Assembly (NCBI GenBank): GCA_030606565.1
Contig: JAUWGE010000017.1
Coordinates: 1 to 37,052, forward strand
Direction: 5' to 3'
Length of the DNA stretch: 37,052 nucleotides
DNA from: Candidatus Bipolaricaulota bacterium
Lineage (GTDB): Bacteria; Bipolaricaulota; Bipolaricaulia; UBA7950; UBA9294
Shown here piece after piece: positions 13,057 to 36,975 of the stretch; the first letter of the stretch is position 1, and the number at the start of each line of letters is the position of its first letter. Position numbers and translations under genes: made by a program. Under the pieces are notes generated by a model that was not told the DNA's origin, made no database searches, and was given only the letters and a program-made list of their open reading frames with translations.

Positions 13057-13568
13057 CGCTTGGCAAGAAGCGCCTTAGTATTCTCGATAAACTCCAAGAC
13101 GACCCCTTTGAAACGCCGCCAGTCGAATAGTGCCGCTAAACAGATCCAGACGACGAACCATATCGCTGCTCGTGGGGCGTTGAAGTAGGCAACAATGAGT
13201 GGAAGGGTGACTATGGGGAAGGCGAACGACATAGTGACCGACTTGGAGCGGAAGTAGGCGATAAAGACCGCAGCGACCGCCACGTAAATCGCTGCCGGAA
13301 CAAGCGGGATGAACCCGGCCATAACCAGATAGCAGAGCCCGGAGAATACCATCACCATATCAAACACGAACTCCCGCTCACCAATCCATGTCGCTCCCTT
13401 GTGATAGCGGCGGGCGAGCCGACCATCGAGAATGTCCGTCGTCCACCCAAGGATGATCAGCAGGATCACCGCCTCTAAGGCCTGCGGACCGACAAGACCG
13501 AGGAACGAGATCACCACAGCGATAATCCCCCGTGAACCAGTGAGCAAATCAGGGACCTTCTTCATCAC
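13053..13568 (-). CDS. CDP-alcohol phosphatidyltransferase family protein
   Basis: Integral membrane enzyme family (PgsA, PssA and relatives) that condenses CDP-diacylglycerol or a CDP-alcohol with an alcohol. About five hydrophobic helices are visible in 171 residues. The motif begins DILDGRLAR (about 45-53), matching DxxDGxxAR, but the second half [10 protein letters not shown] departs from Gx3Dx3D. If aligned at x8, Gly is Ile, the third Asp is Glu and only the last Asp is kept. Substrate is not assignable. It begins GTG-ATG after AAAAGG. A truncated copy lies at 24.0-24.3 kb with the same variant motif. The next genes (lipid kinase, gpsA) also act in phospholipid metabolism. Confidence 0.87.
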
Positions 13569-13583
13569 CTTTTCACCGTTACT

Positions 13584-13612
13584 ATTTTAGTGGAGCCTAG
13601 CAGGTAAGACAA
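13584..13612 (-). promoter_or_regulatory. Promoter for CDP-alcohol phosphatidyltransferase gene
   Basis: On the - strand TTGTCT (13607-13612), a 17-bp spacer and TAAAAT (13584-13589). The start codon follows about 15 bp downstream with AAAAGG between, so this gene has a short conventional leader. Confidence 0.5.
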
Positions 13613-23725: not shown

Positions 23726-24028
23726 ATGCTAGCTTCGCGAAACGCAAGACGGAGAGCGCGGTGGCCGTACAGGCAAGGAACACGAATATTGATCGGCCTT
23801 GGGATTATCCTGCTCTTCGGCCTATTTGTATTTGGGCAAGACGAGCAGGGCCTTGAGTTCGTCCACCTCATCATCGGGGAGCTCAGGGTGGAGTTTCACC
23901 AGCGGATGATCGACGAGGCAATCGTAGAGGGGGACTATATCGTTCGCCAGTACGACGCCCACACGGGAGAACTGGTGAAGGAGAACCGCCATTGGCGAGC
24001 CGACTTGCCGCCGGAGCAAGCGGGATGA
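23726..24028 (+). CDS. Small single-pass membrane protein (100 aa)
   Basis: Not recognised. A strong SD (AAAAAGGAGG) precedes the ATG at 23726. The protein has an Arg-rich start (MLASRNARRRARWPYRQG), one transmembrane helix (ILIGLGIILLFGLFVFG) and a charged tail with DEQGLEFVHLIIGELRVEF. Orientation by the positive-inside rule would put the tail outside. Its last seven codons and stop come from the antisense of the truncated CDP-alcohol phosphatidyltransferase copy, so the original C-terminus was probably replaced when that fragment arrived. Confidence 0.55.
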   Translation: MLASRNARRRARWPYRQGTRILIGLGIILLFGLFVFGQDEQGLEFVHLIIGELRVEFHQRMIDEAIVEGDYIVRQYDAHTGELVKENRHWRADLPPEQAG

Positions 24029-24281
24029 ACCCGGACATCACCAGGTAACAGAGCCCGGAGAAGACCATCACCATGTCGAAGACAAACTCCCGCTCCCCGA
24101 CCCACGTTACTTCCTTGTGGTAGCGACGGGCAAGTCGGCCGTCGAGGATGTCCGTTGTCCATCCAAGGATGATCAGCAGGATCACCGCTTCAAGTGCCCG
24201 TGGCCCGACAAGCCCGAGGGACGCGATCACCAAAGCGATGCCCCCCCGCGATGCGGTGAGCAGATCAGGAACCCTTTTCAT
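24008..24281 (-). pseudogene. Truncated copy of the CDP-alcohol phosphatidyltransferase gene
   Basis: Starts MKRVPDLLTASRGGIALVIA at an ATG behind GAGAGG and is closely similar to the first half of the 13.05-13.57 kb gene, including [13 protein letters not shown] and [20 protein letters not shown]. Similarity stops sharply after GFIPLAPAA (near 24008), where the + strand membrane-protein gene begins; the frame then runs on into its antisense. About 90 of 171 codons remain. It is a diverged duplicate, not a recent copy, judged by many third-position differences. Confidence 0.8.
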
Positions 24282-24345
24282 CCTCTCGTTCACTGTACTA
24301 ATTGTAATGTCACCGCGCCACGCAAGACAACTATGATGCTCAGGC

Positions 24346-27108: not shown

Positions 27109-27205
27109 TCGACGGAAGGACAACCCGTGGTGTTCAAAAAAGCAGGTTTGTCGTCGTGCGTTGCGATCGTGGTACGCTCACCATAAGCAAGGGGCAGGCC
27201 TTGCA

Positions 27206-27269
27206 GATAAGGTGTGTGTCCCTCTAATTTTGGGAGATGGGAGATAAGGTATGTGTCCCTCGAATTTTT
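27206..27269. repeat. Two direct repeats (GATAAGGTRTGTGTCCCTC...)
   Basis: GATAAGGTGTGTGTCCCTCT (27206) and GATAAGGTATGTGTCCCTCG (27243) are 37 bp apart and both continue into AATTTT. A diverged third copy (TATGGTTTGCGTCCCTCGAA) lies at 28080-28104. The rest of 27109-27275 has no gene. Confidence 0.7.
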
Positions 27270-27784: not shown

Positions 27785-27866
27785 GCCCAACGGGGCTGCG
27801 AATAAGCTACGAGCGGAAGGCACGCTTGCGTGCCAGAACGCACGTCAGCTTCATCCACTGTCGGTC
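27785..27866 (-). other. attC site of the RHH/RelE cassette
   Basis: GTTGGGC on the - strand (27785-27791) is an intact right box. The left box is degenerate (GACCGAC). The arms GGATGAAGCTG and CAGCTTATTCG pair around a GGCACGC/GCGTGCC hairpin with an unpaired G. It is nearly the same as the sites at 32234 and 35310. Confidence 0.75.
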
Positions 27867-28118
27867 GGCGCGCAGCGCCGCCCATACAGTAATTATTCTG
27901 CAAGCCCGCAACATAATACCAGGAGCTCTATTTCATGCCAACTGCGAAGAGATGCTTCCGACAGACCGGGTTCGAAGGAAGGATGGCGACAAGGCGACCT
28001 CAGAGGTGAATCGAGGTGTGAAGACTTAATTTGGGCGCATGCTTTCTTAAGATGTTTTCGGAGTTGCAAGCCTCGGAAATATGGTTTGCGTCCCTCGAAT
28101 TCTCTGGATAGCGAGCGT
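27867..28118. other. Gene-free part of the RHH/RelE cassette
   Basis: About 250 bp between the attC and the RelE stop, with no gene. It holds a GGCGCGCAGCGCC hairpin directly after the attC and the third, diverged copy of the TGTCCCTCGAATT repeat (28080-28104). Confidence 0.45.
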
Positions 28119-28409
28119 TTAGGTTTTGATGTAGTTCTTCAAATCCCTGTAGAAGTTCTCGTGTCCTCCAATGGCGAGCAGATAGAGTCTCTTTTCGGGT
28201 TCATCAACAGTGTAGGCAAGGAGGTAGAGTTGGCCGAGGCAAGAGAACTTGTGGACGCGTACGCCCTGCAAGTCTCCGGCCTTCATCTCACCAAGGGTCG
28301 GGTCGCGGCAGAGCAGGTCTACCTGTACGTCGATTTGTTGCCGCAGTGGTTCGGGGAGCTTTTTCTTGATCCGGGCAAATTTGGTGTAGGCAACGGGCTC
28401 CAGCGCCAT
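28119..28409 (-). CDS. RelE/ParE-superfamily toxin
   Basis: Probable mRNA-cleaving or gyrase-targeting toxin of a type II toxin-antitoxin pair. 96 residues with the fold landmarks FARIKKKLPEPLRQQIDVQV (two helices), GDLQGVRVHKFSCLGQLYLL (central strands), LAYTVDEPEKRLYLLAIGGH and a C-terminal FYRDLKNYIK helix. The Arg and Lys of the central strands and the C-terminal Tyr/Lys are the usual active-site types. It starts 9 bp after the antitoxin stop, in antitoxin-toxin order. Confidence 0.85.
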   Translation of the reverse strand: MALEPVAYTKFARIKKKLPEPLRQQIDVQVDLLCRDPTLGEMKAGDLQGVRVHKFSCLGQLYLLAYTVDEPEKRLYLLAIGGHENFYRDLKNYIKT

Positions 28410-28418
28410 GGCGGAAAG

Positions 28419-28643
28419 CTACCCGCGAGGGTAAGGGAGAACATCCCCTTGTTCGATTCCGGCAAGCGCCTCGCGAATATCCGCTTGGAACTGAGGGTGG
28501 AGGGTATTGTACTGATCGACGTAATGTTCCACGGCCATCTTGACGACCGTGCTTAGGCTGCGTTTTTCCAGCCGCGCGATCTCCTCGAGGTGTCTCTTTA
28601 GTTGAGGGTTTACCTTTGTGGAGACTGACTTTGAGCTTGCCAT
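28419..28643 (-). CDS. CopG/RHH-type antitoxin
   Basis: 74 residues: a ribbon strand (SVSTKVNPQLKRHLEEIARL) then two helices (KRSLSTVVKMAVEHYV), the ribbon-helix-helix DNA-binding domain, and an acidic tail (DIREALAGIEQGD) that would bind the RelE-like toxin. GAGGAGG lies upstream at slightly long spacing. It has its own promoter with GTATAC inverted half-sites, which should be its autoregulatory operator. Confidence 0.85.
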   Translation of the reverse strand: MASSKSVSTKVNPQLKRHLEEIARLEKRSLSTVVKMAVEHYVDQYNTLHPQFQADIREALAGIEQGDVLPYPRG

Positions 28644-28682
28644 GCGTCATCCGCCTCCTCTTTCTTGCGTTCTCCAAACAGA

Positions 28683-28711
28683 AGTATAGCATCAAAGGTA
28701 TACGAAGTCAA
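28683..28711 (-). promoter_or_regulatory. Promoter of the RHH/RelE operon
   Basis: TTGACT (28706-28711), a 17-bp spacer and TATACT (28683-28688) on the - strand, about 40 bases before the antitoxin ATG. A promoter inside a cassette is typical for toxin-antitoxin cassettes. Confidence 0.72.
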
Positions 28712-28780: not shown

Positions 28781-28907
28781 GCCTAACGGTTAGCATCACC
28801 CGCCGGGCGGTTGCGGGAAAGAGCCTCCACTACAAGGCACACTGAAAGCGCGTGGAACCGCCGATGTGCGCAACCGATAGCCCGGTCGGGTGCATGCATT
28901 GTTGGGC
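28781..28907 (-). other. attC site of the alpha/beta-hydrolase cassette (127 bp)
   Basis: GCCCAAC (28901-28907) and GTTAGGC (28781-28787) on the - strand. The 5' arm GCATGCACCCGACCGGGC pairs with GCCCGGCGGGTGATGC, leaving an unpaired G and an unpaired A six bases apart. The A is as in known attC top strands. The long variable loop resembles VCR-type sites in size. Confidence 0.9.
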
Positions 28908-29841: not shown

Positions 29842-29885
29842 CTTTCACCCCCTACCTGTCAATAGAGATTCTGCCCCCATTCCGA

Positions 29886-29967
29886 CGCGCCGGACAGCAA
29901 GCGGATTGAAATCCGCGGCTCGATGGAGCGGCAGCGGAACACCGTCAGGTGGATGCGTTTGTTGGGC
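29886..29967 (-). other. attC half-site plus 44-bp repeat module
   Basis: GCCCAAC (29961-29967) lies inside the 3' end of the membrane-protein gene and is followed by GCATCCACCTGACGGTG, a good 5' arm with C and A at unpaired positions. No matching 3' arm follows. Instead a 44-bp module (29886-29929) with GCGGATT/AATCCGC begins, shared with 32322-32365. No clear right box. Confidence 0.5.
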
Positions 29968-30568: not shown

Positions 30569-30672
30569 GCCCAACGAGCCGCGGATTGAAATCCGCGGCT
30601 CGTTGGAGCGGCTATGGGGCTGGCAAAGGAGCGCAGCGGATTTGCCAGTCCAACTTCAGCCGCGGGTTAGCG
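30569..30672 (-). other. attC site with perfect 17-bp inverted repeat
   Basis: CGCTAAC (30666-30672), 2 bp after the HEPN-like gene's stop, and GTTGGGC (30569-30575) on the - strand. TGGCAAA/TTTGCCA and GTTGGA/TCCAAC stems form the centre, and CCGCGGCT/AGCCGCGG the outer arm. The right end has CCAACGAGCCGCGGATT repeated perfectly inverted (30571-30606), an unusual addition. Confidence 0.75.
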
Positions 30673-31515: not shown

Positions 31516-31577
31516 CACTAACGCCCTCGGCATCAGCTGCGGCGCGCAGCGCCGTCAGCTGCATGCCGTTGTTAGGA
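31516..31577 (-). other. attC site of the HigBA cassette (62 bp)
   Basis: TCCTAAC (31571-31577) and GTTAGTG (31516-31522) on the - strand. The 5' arm CGGCATGCAGCTGACGGC pairs with GCCGCAGCTGATGCCG, leaving unpaired G and A six bases apart. It is short and among the cleanest sites; the HigA stop is 14 bp upstream. Confidence 0.92.
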
Positions 31578-31591
31578 GGCCGTTTCAAACA

Positions 31592-31900
31592 CTAGTCGGT
31601 GGCACGCACAGGCCGAATGCGCCGGAGCTCGGCTGCCTCGGTCTGCTGAGCCCGAAAAAGGTCCCACCGAACCTGGAGATTCATCCAGAACGAGGGCGAG
31701 TTTCCAAAGACTCGGGCCAAGCGCAGCGCCGTGCTGGGGGTGATGCCGCGCCGCTTGTTGATCAGCTCGTTCACACGCTGATAGGGAACGTGGATACGAT
31801 CTGCCAGTTCCCGCTGCGAAATCTCCATCGGCTTGAGAAACTCCTCCAAAAGCATCTCGCCCGGGTGCGTCGGCTCTCGATGGGTCGGTACACGTACCAT
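31592..31900 (-). CDS. higA: HigA-family antitoxin (HTH, addiction module antidote)
   Basis: 102 residues from the ATG at 31900 (GGAGG at seven bases). HPGEMLLEEFLKPMEISQRE is the HigA/VapI-type start; an XRE helix-turn-helix follows (QRELADRIHVPYQRVNELIN), with RGITPSTALRLARVFGNSP and the terminal WMNLQVRWDLFRAQ. It binds HigB and represses the operon. It follows higB by 10 bp, in the usual toxin-antitoxin order of this family. Confidence 0.92.
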   Translation of the reverse strand: MVRVPTHREPTHPGEMLLEEFLKPMEISQRELADRIHVPYQRVNELINKRRGITPSTALRLARVFGNSPSFWMNLQVRWDLFRAQQTEAAELRRIRPVRATD

Positions 31901-31910
31901 TTCCCGCCTC

Positions 31911-32194
31911 CTAATGGTAGTCCACAATCTCTACGTCCGCAGGCCCCATTTCCGTCCAGCGAAAGCAGACTCGGTATCGGTCATTAATCCGAATGCTGAA
32001 TTGGTCCCGTCGACTTCCGGACAGCTGTTCCAAGCAGTTCCCCGGCGGGATTCGGAGTCCACCACCGAGTCCAGCTGATCGAGCTTGCGTCCCGCGATAC
32101 TCCAAAGATTCTGCGGACACGTTCTTCGCGCAACCTTGGTGCTGCGCCCGTTGAAGATGTCCTCGGTTGCCTGGGTTGCGAAGGACCGAATCAT
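31911..32194 (-). pseudogene. higB: HigB toxin gene with one frameshift
   Basis: Begins MIRSFATQATEDIFNGRSTK, followed by AGRKLDQLDSVVDS in one frame, and continues LRIPPGNCLEQLSG and then FSIRINDRYRVCFRWTEMGP in the next, ending EIVDYH. One base is missing near 32055 (GACTCCG where GACCTCCG is expected). Joined, it is a normal HigB of about 93 residues with the R..CFRW toxin core. Either the toxin is dead while the antitoxin survives, or it is an assembly error. Confidence 0.8.
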
Positions 32195-32200
32195 AAACAC

Positions 32201-32229
32201 ATAATAGCACGGCTAGCATGCTATTTCAA
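32201..32229 (-). promoter_or_regulatory. higBA promoter (leaderless type)
   Basis: TTGAAA (32224-32229), a 17-bp spacer and TATTAT (32201-32206) on the - strand; the HigB ATG at 32194 follows six bases later. The spacer contains GCATGCTAGC, part of a possible HigA operator. Confidence 0.68.
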
Positions 32230-32233
32230 GCCC

Positions 32234-32314
32234 TTCTAACGAGCTGCGGATAAGCTGCGAGCGGAAGGCACGCTTGCGTACCAGAACGCACGCCAGCTTC
32301 ATCCGTTGTTGGGA
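32234..32314 (-). other. attC unit B of the kinase cassette (81 bp)
   Basis: TCCCAAC (32308-32314) and GTTAGAA (32234-32240) on the - strand. Arms GGATGAAGCTGGCGTGC and GCAGCTTATCC pair with an unpaired G; central hairpin GGTACGC/GCGTGCC. Nearly the same as 27785-27866 and 35310-35391. Confidence 0.85.
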
Positions 32315-32321
32315 GGCGCTA

Positions 32322-32365
32322 CGCGCCGGACAGCAAGCGGATTGAAACCCGCGGCTCGATGGAGC
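32322..32365. repeat. 44-bp module, copy 2
   Basis: Differs at one base from 29886-29929; it contains CGGACAGCAAGCGG and GCGGCTCGATGGAGC. 30581-30612 shares about 31 of 32 bases with the right part of 29886-29932. It lies between two attC units. Confidence 0.75.
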
Positions 32366-32383
32366 AGGCGCGAAGCGATCGCT

Positions 32384-32509
32384 CCATCGTAGGCGTCAGC
32401 CGCGCCGAACCGCAACCCAGGACGCTGGACTGCTGCCAAACCATTGAAAATCAAAAACGATTGTTAAACGCGGCGCGTGTTCGGCGTCGGCTGCACGCCA
32501 TCGTTAGCC
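32384..32509 (-). other. attC unit A of the kinase cassette
   Basis: GGCTAAC (32503-32509) on the - strand. The 5' arm GGCGTGCAGCCGACGCCGAA (32481-32500 region) pairs with TTCGGCGCGGCTGACGCC (32392-32409), leaving unpaired G and A six bases apart. The right box is replaced by ACGATGG, so this unit may not recombine on its own. The region 32315-32605 has no gene. Confidence 0.72.
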
Positions 32510-32605
32510 CTGTTCAACTCTCTGAAGCCAGCCTTTTGTGTCAGTATTCATAAAACACCACGAGTTACACCCAACAGTTTACATTTTGATGGCGTAAATA
32601 GAGAG

Positions 32606-33553
32606 TTATATATACTTCTGAACAGCCTCGGTTAGCTTACCTAAATGGCTAGGGCCCTCAACTGTTACGGCCGCAAGGTACCCCCATACACGCCATAGAT
32701 CACGTCTTTCCCTAAATCCCAGATCAATGGGCAGTTCATCCTGATAGCCATCAAAAACATCATCCGACACTGTTTGGAAATAGTCGATAAATGCAAGATC
32801 CATTTCCGGATTTCCGTAGTAGACCGCTGGATCAATAACGACCGCTCCCATTTCGGTGCTGATGAAGTTGTTTTGTTGAGCGTCACCATGGAGGAGCGAG
32901 GGCACTATTTCAGGGCCACAAAGCTCGGGAAGGCGTGAAATTAGCTTTTCGACCTGCCGAATTACAACTGGAGGCATATTTCCGGAATCAATTGCCAGTT
33001 TCAAACCTGGCCACAGCCGACGTTCCGCATAGAATGTTGGCCAGTCACTCATCGGAGTGTTATCTTGGTAAAGAGGCCCAAAGTAACCATGTGTTTCTAA
33101 ACCGAACCGATCCCACCTGATCTTATGGATGCGGGCAAGCGTTTGTCCAATTTGTCGCCAGTGGTGAGGGGCTCTATCAACGGCTTTGACTGCCTCAAGG
33201 ACCAAGATGCTTCCACCTGTAACCGGAATAATACCGATTGGACTGGGCGTTAGGACGCCTGAACGTTCAGAGAGGAGTCGCAACCCTGTCAGTTCAATCT
33301 CAAACTGTTCAAATCCATTGGCTGCTTCACTGAATTTGGCAAATACGGAATAGGAACCGTTCGAAAGGATGGCGCCGTGATGACAGGCAAACTCTGTCAT
33401 ATCCCTAGCATCTTTTATTGTCCACTGGCGCCCTATGTGTTCAGAAACAATCTGTTCCACTGGGGTACGAAGTGGACTACTCGCTAATCGAATAGATGGG
33501 ATTCGATTTTGCGATCGATGGACTTTGCTCTTGAGCAACATTCTCGCACACAC
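32606..33553 (-). CDS. Cassette: fructosamine-kinase/APH-fold kinase
   Basis: Protein-kinase-like small-molecule kinase. The catalytic loop LLHGDAQQNNF (H222, D224, N229) and metal motif VVIDPAVYYGNPEMDLAFID (D241) are those of fructosamine-3-kinases. A Gly-rich/Lys strand is GSYSVFAKFSEAANGFEQFE with Lys73. 315 residues; GTG start at 33553 or ATG at 33541, neither with a clear SD. Possible roles are deglycation of proteins or sugar phosphorylation; antibiotic phosphorylation is not suggested by these motifs but cannot be excluded. Confidence 0.85.
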   Translation of the reverse strand: MCARMLLKSKVHRSQNRIPSIRLASSPLRTPVEQIVSEHIGRQWTIKDARDMTEFACHHGAILSNGSYSVFAKFSEAANGFEQFEIELTGLRLLSERSGVLTPSPIGIIPVTGGSILVLEAVKAVDRAPHHWRQIGQTLARIHKIRWDRFGLETHGYFGPLYQDNTPMSDWPTFYAERRLWPGLKLAIDSGNMPPVVIRQVEKLISRLPELCGPEIVPSLLHGDAQQNNFISTEMGAVVIDPAVYYGNPEMDLAFIDYFQTVSDDVFDGYQDELPIDLGFRERRDLWRVWGYLAAVTVEGPSHLGKLTEAVQKYI

Positions 33554-33630
33554 CTATTTATCTGTATTTGGCCAGCTTGAGTTGCATACCAACCTTCGTT
33601 ACGAAAACAAGCAATCCTGTCTATACGAGG

Positions 33631-33710
33631 GGCTAACGAGCCGCGGATCAGCGGTGGACGGAGCGCGAGTTTGCTCGCAACGGAGTCCGTCCGCTGGATC
33701 CGCTGATGGA
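33631..33710 (-). other. attC unit B of the lipoprotein cassette
   Basis: GTTAGCC on the - strand (33631-33637) is the right box. Arms GGATCCAGCGG and CCGCTGATCC pair, leaving an unpaired C, the base seen in canonical sites. The left box is degenerate (GTCCATCA). Confidence 0.65.
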
Positions 33711-33730
33711 CGGCGCTTCGCGCCCGCTTC

Positions 33731-33815
33731 ATCGACCAAGATCAGCCGCCGCTGCAAGCGGTCGGCTTGCTTGCCGATCTCCTTGTCGCAGTCTGTGCAG
33801 TGGTTGGTCACGTGA
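33731..33815 (-). other. Possible attC unit A of the lipoprotein cassette
   Basis: CAAGCAAGCCGACCGC pairs imperfectly with GCGGCGGCTGATCTTG around a small loop, with an unpaired A. A left box near 33810 (GACCAAC) is poor, and GTCGATGA stands at the right-box position, as in the other tandem sites. No gene lies in 33554-33858. Confidence 0.38.
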
Positions 33816-33858
33816 CCCCACGTATTGGTTCTATTCGTTGCGGCGCAGCACTTCCGCT

Positions 33859-34482
33859 CTACGGGCTTTCGTTGAGCACCGTTGAAGGCCAGGAGTCCAC
33901 ACCCTCATCGGGGGCACTCACCAGGTAGACGCGCCATCGGCTGTCTCTGTCCGTCACCATGCGAAAGACGACCTCGCCGCTCACCCCGTCCACATCGGCG
34001 ATCACATCCACAGCCTGCTCGCCGTCACGCGTCTCCGAGTCTTTGCTACGGAGAATATCTAGGACACCTCTCAAGTCGATCAACAGATCATCTTCCTTGG
34101 CCGCGTAAAGCATGATCTGGTCGAAGAAGTACCAGGAGTCCATTTGCGTATTGAACATCTCCCGAAAGTCCAAATCATCCATCAAGCCCTCATCTGCGTC
34201 TTCCCCGATCAAATGCCGCCAGCTGAATGTCTGGACGTTTTCCATCCGCAGCAGCCTCTGCGCCTCGACATCGAGCACCAGGTAGACGGTCATAAAGTCT
34301 TCCCGCTGAAAGGCCTTGGCGAAGGTCTGAACCGCGTCTTCGGGCGTCTCCAGGTTGAGCGATTCATAATAGGTTCGGGCGTCGTTTTCCTCACCTGATT
34401 CCAGCATCCCACCGGACTGGCAGGCCAGTGTCACCAGCAGCACTGCCAGTATGATCGTGATCAGCTGCGTGTGTTCTTTCAT
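33859..34482 (-). CDS. Cassette: lipoprotein, function unknown
   Basis: The frame opens at 34515; the ATG at 34482 (GGAGC upstream) starts a clear lipoprotein signal, MKEHTQLITIILAVLLVTLA then CQSGG, with lipobox LAC. The mature part (about 186 residues) is acidic and mixed alpha/beta: PEDAVQTFAKAFQREDFMTV resembles the start of NTF2-like or DUF4878-like domains, and VVFRMVTDRDSRWRVYLV is a strand pair at the end. No catalytic motif. It is exported and membrane-attached. Confidence 0.8.
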   Translation of the reverse strand: MKEHTQLITIILAVLLVTLACQSGGMLESGEENDARTYYESLNLETPEDAVQTFAKAFQREDFMTVYLVLDVEAQRLLRMENVQTFSWRHLIGEDADEGLMDDLDFREMFNTQMDSWYFFDQIMLYAAKEDDLLIDLRGVLDILRSKDSETRDGEQAVDVIADVDGVSGEVVFRMVTDRDSRWRVYLVSAPDEGVDSWPSTVLNESP

Positions 34483-34543
34483 ACGTAGCTCCTTCCTCGG
34501 TTGTGATGAATTCACCTACTGTTCGTACTGAGATGGTTTAGCC

Positions 34544-34669
34544 GCCCAACGAAATAATCAGCCGCCCGCCGGATTGGCATTCCAACATAATTTGATTATA
34601 GCCAAAATCTGCAAATTTCACGCCGCTTACCCTCCGCCGCAGGCGGGTCGGCTGCATTAAGGGTTAGGC
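34544..34669 (-). other. attC site of the methyltransferase-like cassette (126 bp)
   Basis: GCCTAAC (34663-34669) and GTTGGGC (34544-34550) on the - strand. The 5' arm AATGCAGCCGACCCGCC pairs with GGCGGGCGGCTGATT, leaving unpaired G and A six bases apart. The AT-rich loop contains TATAAT on the - strand. Along with 28781 and 31516 it is the best-formed site. Confidence 0.92.
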
Positions 34670-34703
34670 CGCCTTTTCCATTTTGCCCGTTGAAAAACCA
34701 TAA

Positions 34704-35264
34704 TCAAAAGAACAGGAAATATCTAGGCACACGTTTCATATACCTTCGATATGAATCACCATACCTCTCTAAGCAAGCACTCTCTTCTGCTAGAATTCTA
34801 GAGTGAAGAAATAACGAGGATATTATTTGTACGAATAGCGCAAGCCAAGAGCCTATGGCAATACAAATCCCAATAAAGGTTACAAAAAACATGAGTTGCT
34901 GTGGATGACGTGATATTCTGTAGAGGCCACTGGTAATTGGCTGATCAAGGAGCGCACTTTTAAAATTGAAAAGCGCAACAACGAATCCAGCCGACCCAAG
35001 GACATACAAAATAATTCCGGGGATGAAAACAGCAGAGCTGATTTTTAATGGGGTAAAGATTATCAGACCAAAATAGACAAACGCAAAGAAACTTCCTATG
35101 TAAAGAATGACTTTATGCCTTTTACTCCGACCAGACTTATCGTAAAGCCTCTCTACTACATCCTTCGGAAAGACTATGAGCAAAATAATGTATATCAAAT
35201 ACAGTAAGCATATAAGAATCCAGCCGTTTAGCCACCCTAGTTCAAGTGTAGGAATCAGTCCCAT
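34704..35264 (-). CDS. Cassette: isoprenylcysteine-methyltransferase-like membrane protein
   Basis: 186 residues with about five membrane helices. The C-terminal signature GLYRISRHPQQL and LAEESACLERYGDSYRRYMK followed by VPRYF is that of the ICMT/PEMT/NnrU group of S-adenosylmethionine-dependent membrane methyltransferases. The substrate (lipid, thiol or other) is unknown. It is AT-rich, unlike the neighbouring cassettes, a sign of separate origin. A weak SD lies before the ATG. Confidence 0.85.
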   Translation of the reverse strand: MGLIPTLELGWLNGWILICLLYLIYIILLIVFPKDVVERLYDKSGRSKRHKVILYIGSFFAFVYFGLIIFTPLKISSAVFIPGIILYVLGSAGFVVALFNFKSALLDQPITSGLYRISRHPQQLMFFVTFIGICIAIGSWLALFVQIISSLFLHSRILAEESACLERYGDSYRRYMKRVPRYFLFF

Positions 35265-35309
35265 TTCTCATTCCTTCCCGCTGAATTTGTGTTGCTATGC
35301 ATTATGGCG

Positions 35310-35391
35310 GCCCAACGGGGCTGCGGATAAGCTGCGAGCGGAAGGCACGCTTGCGTGCCAGAACGCACGCCAGCTTCATCCGTTGTCGGGA
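35310..35391 (-). other. attC unit B of the proximal cassette (82 bp)
   Basis: GTTGGGC (35310-35316) is the right box on the - strand; the left box is TCCCGAC (35385-35391), one base off. Arms GGATGAAGCTGGCGTGC and CGCAGCTTATCC, hairpin GGCACGC/GCGTGCC. Closest relatives are 27785-27866 and 32234-32314. Confidence 0.82.
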
Positions 35392-35408
35392 GGCGCTTCG
35401 CGCCCGCT

Positions 35409-35468
35409 CCATCGATCGGCTTCAGTTGCGCCGGTTTCTTGGCGTCAACTGGAAGCCGCTGGTTAGCT
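35409..35468 (-). other. attC unit A of the proximal cassette
   Basis: AGCTAAC (35462-35468) overlaps the stop of the PD-(D/E)XK-like gene. CGGCTTCCAGTTGACGCC pairs with GGCGCAACTGAAGCCG, leaving unpaired C and A six bases apart, matching the canonical pattern. The right box is replaced by ATCGATGG. It is separated from unit B by a GGGCGCGAAGCGCC hairpin. Confidence 0.75.
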
Positions 35469-36914: not shown

Positions 36915-36921
36915 AGCTAAC
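36915..36921 (-). other. Possible attI recombination box
   Basis: GTTAGCT on the - strand fits GTTRRRY and lies between the promoter at 36947-36975 and the first cassette gene. No attC arms precede it, as expected for attI. Placement is the main evidence; a single 7-bp box is weak. Confidence 0.4.
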
Positions 36922-36946
36922 AATGATTATCGTGCAACCCTGCAAT

Positions 36947-36975
36947 ATAATATATCCACAAGTAGCTAATGTCAA
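36947..36975 (-). promoter_or_regulatory. Candidate cassette promoter (Pc-like)
   Basis: TTGACA (36970-36975), a 17-bp spacer and TATTAT (36947-36952) on the - strand, near-consensus and directed into the array. It lies 105 bases before the first cassette gene's start. The remaining bases to 37052 show nothing else I can identify. Confidence 0.65.

Follow-up and report, generated by a model that had tools for sequence, protein, structure and literature searches.

The analysed window comprises the entire contig C23 (37,052 bp) of a Candidatus Bipolaricaulota MAG (1.81 Mb, 63 contigs, 91% complete; G000). An integron cassette array extends from approximately 27.3 kb to the right end of the window, with the cassette genes on the - strand; its cassettes encode a DUF7670 protein, a ParE-like toxin, an alpha/beta hydrolase, a DUF4760 protein, a HigB/HTH pair, a fructosamine kinase, a PEMT-type methyltransferase and several unknowns. 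Two cassettes are toxin-antitoxin-like (28119-28695, ParE-like; 31592-32219, HigB with HTH) and are also present in the array of the related genome G001. The array opens at an attI-like site with a near-consensus promoter (36975-36921), and the sites described below are situated between cassettes downstream of this attI/Pc. No family was matched in an Rfam scan of the window. Outside the array, positions 13291-13587 and 24007-24303 form a 297-nt direct repeat (80% identical). A 27-nt repeat, GGAGATAAGGTATGTGTCCCTCGAATT, is located at 27203-27266 and 28075-28101, and a similar CCTCGAATTCA stretch is found upstream of several attI copies elsewhere. The landmarks of the array are the two attI sites and three ordinary single attC sites given for contrast (↓ marks the crossover, (-) the minus strand):

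36921-36975 (-): attI and sigma70-type promoter (Pc), array start; TTGACA-N17-TATTAT-N17-TAATCATTG↓TTAGCTA (sequence, pattern, repeat copies)
27887-27941 (-): second attI/Pc, termed attI'; TTGGCA-N17-TATTAT ... TAATTACTG
31522-31577 (-): G, single short attC; covariance model 66.3 bits
34550-34669 (-): H, single long attC; attC pattern search
28781-28907 (-): J, single attC, common to G001

Generally, attC sites are recombined by the integron integrase (IntI) as the folded bottom strand. As the inner boxes are variable, a strict attC regular expression missed most sites and was replaced by a covariance model of 61 positions, which was built partly from the sites under study and yields 48-60 bits for the units of A, B and C listed below, by construction where these are training rows. 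In the first-pass annotation, the cassettes ending at 32234, 33631 and 35310 were each described as finishing in two attC-like units. This is correct for sites A (32509-32240) and C (35468-35316), where in gene sense a short GC palindrome separates a complete attC from a second attC unit behind it; site A, however, is a triple, with unit K between the first attC and unit Y. Site B (33791-33637) has the layout of C but contains unit Bm, and its second unit is good, its first weak. The components of the three sites are:

35413-35468 (-): C, first attC, R'' AGCTAAC, to the crossover G; fold z = -4.58; covariance model 52 bits (35407-35467)
35392-35412 (-): C, linker ATGGAGC-GGGCGCGAAGCGCC, a T2/T3 hybrid; identical linker in B, relatives in A, C35 and G001-e
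35316-35391 (-): C, second attC, unit Y, R'' TCCCGAC; covariance model 48.5 bits (35310-35391); homologous copies in C40 and G001
33733-33791 (-): B, possible decayed first attC; weak fold, z = -2.05, 8 of 200 shuffles equally good
33712-33732 (-): B, linker ATGAAGCGGGCGCGAAGCGCC (sequence)
33637-33711 (-): B, second attC, unit Bm, R'' GTCCATC; fold z = -4.82; covariance model 52.9 bits (33631-33711); copies in C35 and G001
32388-32509 (-): A, long attC (122 bp) of the fructosamine-kinase cassette; fold z = -3.15, L''/L' helix
32358-32387 (-): A, linker T2, palindromic ATGGAGC...GCTCCATC; fold z = -3.20
32331-32357 (-): A, body of the short attC-like unit K, which takes its R'' from the end of T2; 92% identity with the copy at 29885-29936, copies in G001:C99
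32315-32330 (-): A, linker T3 TCCGGCGCGTAGCGCC (sequence)
32240-32314 (-): A, third attC, unit Y, R'' TCCCAAC; covariance model 60.1 bits (32234-32314); fold z = -2.83

In gene sense, site C reads AGCTAAC...GAAGCCGATCG↓ATGGAGC-GGGCGCGAAGCGCC-TCCCGAC-AACGGATGAAGC...CAGCCCCG↓TTGGGCC, and site A runs from the attC of the kinase cassette through T2, K, T3 and Y to ↓TTAGAAG and the HigBA cassette. The stretch 32440-32510 was considered as an orphan site and rejected, since it is the left arm of the kinase cassette's single long attC; a 70-codon frame that crosses site B, possibly a gene, matches nothing in Pfam. The hairpins of the attC units stand out from shuffled sequences in single-stranded DNA folding (z = -2.8 to -4.8), and the outer R''/R' boxes of A and C conform to RYYYAAC/GTTRRRY, the inner boxes being variants (GATGGAGC, TCCCGAC). 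The sites thus share R''/R' boxes, L''/L' helix and hairpin fold with ordinary attC, from which they differ in the two or three units in a row and in the inner boxes GAT, ATC or GTC. A chance pairing of the inner arms, by which the first-pass annotation would have been refuted, is contradicted by the conservation of Y: the Y stretches of A, C and a further site D (27862-27791) are 80-89% identical over 95 nt, with matches elsewhere at E = 1e-30 to 1e-35.

The box between the units had initially been regarded as lacking or replaced. It is in fact present as a variant of GWTRRRY (GATGGAGC/GATGAAGC), placed exactly at the crossover: similarity between the copies sets in immediately behind the G of G↓WTRRRY and extends precisely to the G of the final R' box. 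In the T2 copies (A, B, C, C35, G001-e), mean identity is 31% over the 16 nt left of the crossover and 83% over the 21 nt to its right, the linker alignment positions having been set by eye, guided by the G↓TTRRRY rule; the T1 copies (C40 twice, G001-f, G010, G019) show 92% on the right versus 42% on the left, where three attI-sharing copies raise the value. At the right boundary, identity over the 12 nt that lead up to the last G is 69% for Y and 100% for Bm, as against 30-34% in the cassettes that follow. The position of the crossover is fixed independently of the linker alignment by 26 attI-like copies (G000, G001, G002, G003, G045), which are 77% identical over the 30 nt before G↓ and 27%, i.e. 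background, after it; the sequence that follows begins with TT in 20 copies and with AT in three. Gene cassettes with an ATGGRC start (GAT core) likewise abut attI at C17:59744 and G002:C144. Since the shared modules begin where gene cassettes join attI, GATGGAGC is best read as a crossover box whose core is a variant. Cleavage by the integrase has been reported as possible between G and A of GAT triplets, besides GTT (PMC10127599). For cassettes with identical sites on both sides, the reported excision exceeds 97% (PMC12901181), and persisting double sites are therefore expected to possess weakened inner boxes; the GAT, ATC and GTC boxes would now recombine poorly and the doubles would persist for this reason.

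Linkers T1 and T2 come close to perfect palindromes, with pairing at 11-13 of 14-15 positions and fold z values of -3.2 to -8.5. The linker of C, folded alone, is not (z = -0.97). Part of this pairing is built in, as R' and R'' are complementary by definition; the remainder may stem from template switching, gene conversion or selection. Between genera, T1 exhibits matched changes (TTGCGAGG/CCTCGCAA to TTACGAGG/CCTCGTAA in G019) that are compatible with selection for R'-R'' pairing.

Beyond the three loci of the first-pass annotation, the window contains the further variants D, E and F:

27863-27886 (-): D, linker TATGGGCGGCGCTGCGCGCCGACC directly after attI'; matching arrangement in G001 (L053, 6870 and 11600)
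27791-27862 (-): D, unit Y, gene-less, between attI' and the DUF7670 cassette; covariance model 38.2 bits
29895-29967 (-): E, mini attC, linker TTCCGCTGCC and unit K, ahead of the abhydrolase cassette; in G001, K likewise stands in front of the orthologous abhydrolase (L032, L053)
30610-30672 (-): F, first attC without R' box (sequence)
30575-30609 (-): F, unit K closed into a perfect palindrome, GCTCCAAC...GTTGG; 17-nt arms, 100% complementary, 2-nt spacer (30571-30606); fold z = -7.91

Within the window, the 95-nt Y/Bm stretch is present four times and the K stretch three times, and further Y, Bm and K copies are located on contigs C40 and C35 of G000 and in G001. Altogether, the linkers T1, T2 and T3 and the units K, Y and Bm occur at about 15 places in G000, its congeners and another genus, behind differing attC sites or directly behind attI. 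On contig C40, T1-K'-T3-Y is found after attI (CATTG↓TTGCGAGGACGC) and, one gene further on, after attC_z (GCCG↓TTGCGAGGACGC); on C35, T2-K-T3-Bm directly follows attI, and the orthologous attI of G002:C28 carries a short form, ATGGAGCGGTCGCTTCGCGCCCGCTGATCCGCGGCTCG, before the matching nitroreductase-like cassette. T3-Y or T3-Bm adjoins attI' of the window (D) and attI twice in G001; in G019, which belongs to another genus, T1 alone, with its matched change pair, follows attI and adjoins an apparent integrase start fragment. Judged by their sequences, the modules of different sites, contigs and genera are homologous to one another, and the attI copies bear them without any upstream attC. The suggestion of a two-module site type in the first-pass annotation is supported by a recurrent modular site in G000 and G001 with remnants in G002 and another genus. 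At L023 (6140-6290, G000:C35), an attC is followed by half of Bm, starting from the internal G↓TTGCGAGC of Bm, whose GTT box may possibly have served as a recombination point. A Phycisphaerae contig (L089) with a 21-nt K palindrome was treated as unrelated, there being no array context around the match, and a search of a plasmid collection with site A gave no match.

Taken together, the double and triple sites are probably composed of an ordinary attC or attI and one or more gene-less mini-cassettes that were inserted by IntI, later trimmed and partly locked. Such a mini-cassette of approximately 100-180 bp would comprise nothing but one of the palindromic linkers T1, T2 and T3 joined to one attC unit or two (K, Y or Bm, or K combined with Y or Bm); the integrase would insert it, singly and successively, either at the standard G↓TTRRRY crossover or at a tolerated variant with GAT, and later trimming would have given rise to B, C, E and F as well as to the C35 site with half of Bm. 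In the window, the proposed elements (about 100-150 bp) have G↓ on both sides, an attC inside and, apart from the 70-codon frame through B, no open reading frame, and are filled by hairpin units. The agency of IntI and the order of the insertions are inferred. A single unit recurs in different array positions (after attI and after attC in C40, with copies in G001, G010, G019 and G002), which suggests that mini-cassettes move between positions; no two genomes were found in which a locus differs by the presence of the entire module while its flanks otherwise agree. It is conceivable, if rather doubtful, that the mini-cassettes are minimal non-autonomous passengers in which the linker, by pairing R' with the next R'', acts as an antagonist hairpin against attC folding and makes the double site a recombination switch or lock.

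The best of the other explanations, though an unlikely one, is that of one single large attC, which would truly end at R'' of K and at R' of Y/Bm, T3 with the Y hairpin forming a branched terminal structure. Indeed, the left arm of K can pair with the right arm of the Y or Bm that follows, with matched changes (C40-1, C40-2, A, C35, G001-b), the covariation in C40-1 and C40-2 (GAGGC/GCCTC, GGGGC/GCCCC) comprising few independent changes, and F represents an identical site closed as one perfect hairpin. A pure tandem model does not predict this covariation, and folding of the whole block into a single large site is therefore possible as well. However, Y and Bm are found on their own, with no K, in C, B, D, G001-c and G001-d and possess their own R'' box and good attC folds, and the attC and T linker upstream of K would be left unexplained. 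The first-pass annotation had also considered cassette deletion between sites, i.e. two attC left side by side after loss of the intervening gene. Although F, E, C35-1 and G002:C28 resemble later deletions, this origin is improbable: independent gene losses need two attC sites and would leave differing remnants, whereas identical palindromic linkers stand in unrelated neighbourhoods. Moreover, linkers and units follow attI directly, starting at G↓ (C40, C35, D, G001, G010, G019, G002:C28); without an upstream attC, gene deletion between two attC cannot generate such modules, but repeated cassette insertion can. Least probable is a REP/MITE-like palindromic repeat family merely lodged near attC, which would agree with the short, multi-copy, GC-rich palindromes and the loose copies at C17 (L018, L085) but not with boundaries at the IntI crossover, R''/R' boxes and L arms within the units, and the location of nearly all copies at attC or attI.

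Gene-less cassettes as such are already known; the construction from tandem attC units only, with near-perfect R'-R'' palindromes, is new as far as found, no such cassettes being described in the open-licence papers searched. In the chromosomal integrons of Vibrio, arrays contain gene-less cassettes, most of them with promoter activity for the next cassette (PMC11014356); the mini-cassettes resemble these as ORF-less cassettes within arrays, but their body is a mostly palindromic linker of 10-31 nt plus attC units, with tandem units per cassette. An "empty" cassette recurring several times in an array is reported from Xanthomonas integrons (PMC12444791), which is similar in that a single gene-less type recurs and different in that no hairpin modules appear in its description, on which the comparison is based. 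In class 1 and 2 integrons, cassettes may end in attI-derived sites (Delta-attI-type, PMC12901181); attI' (27941-27887) corresponds to these in that an attI-type site replaces attC inside an array, but Delta-attI-type cassettes mostly keep 14-18 nt of attI, whereas attI' carries its promoter too. No integron study of Bipolaricaulota/Acetothermia, and nothing on GWT/attG or multiple attI, was found in the open-licence papers searched.

An intact intI was not found in G000 (91% complete); only fragments were found, so that the arrays are best termed cassette arrays with attI and no detected integrase. C-terminal intI-like fragments are located at C11:10596-10850, C27:112741-112908 (with a stop codon), C15 and C9. 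The congeners G002 and G003 encode an integron integrase above NCBI's cut-off (two congeners at 482.8 and 400.5 bits); that of G002 (L054) is intact, with a frame of 363 codons. Divergent integrase N-terminal-like fragments, read by eye and in one case (in L052) confirmed by tblastn, lie beside attI copies in G001, G010 and G019 (L052, 16640-17100 and 18080-18490; L053, 3000-3210; L093; L062). The pattern TATNNT-N13..18-TAATYAYTG has 11 matches (10 places) in G000, 12 in G001 and 6 in G002, as compared with 0-1 for the reversed-pattern control. About 25 dispersed attI-plus-promoter elements are present genus-wide: in the window (36921-36975, 27887-27941), on C17, C35, C40, C49, C52 and C54 of G000, and in G001 and G002. 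After the G↓ of most elements an apparent gene cassette follows, and some form the series attI-gene-attI-gene (C52, G002:C165); this arrangement possibly reflects many one-cassette integron platforms per genome.

The sites form a graded natural set of cassettes made up of attC alone, running from the whole T-K-T3-Y down to a trimmed half unit, and suggest that cassettes can spread without any gene to select for. They offer a test of how IntI handles adjacent sites and boxes with a GAT core; programs that search for sites may report a single mini-cassette as several. The dispersed attI-promoter elements may matter more than the mini-cassettes, as they would furnish one genome with many one-cassette platforms.
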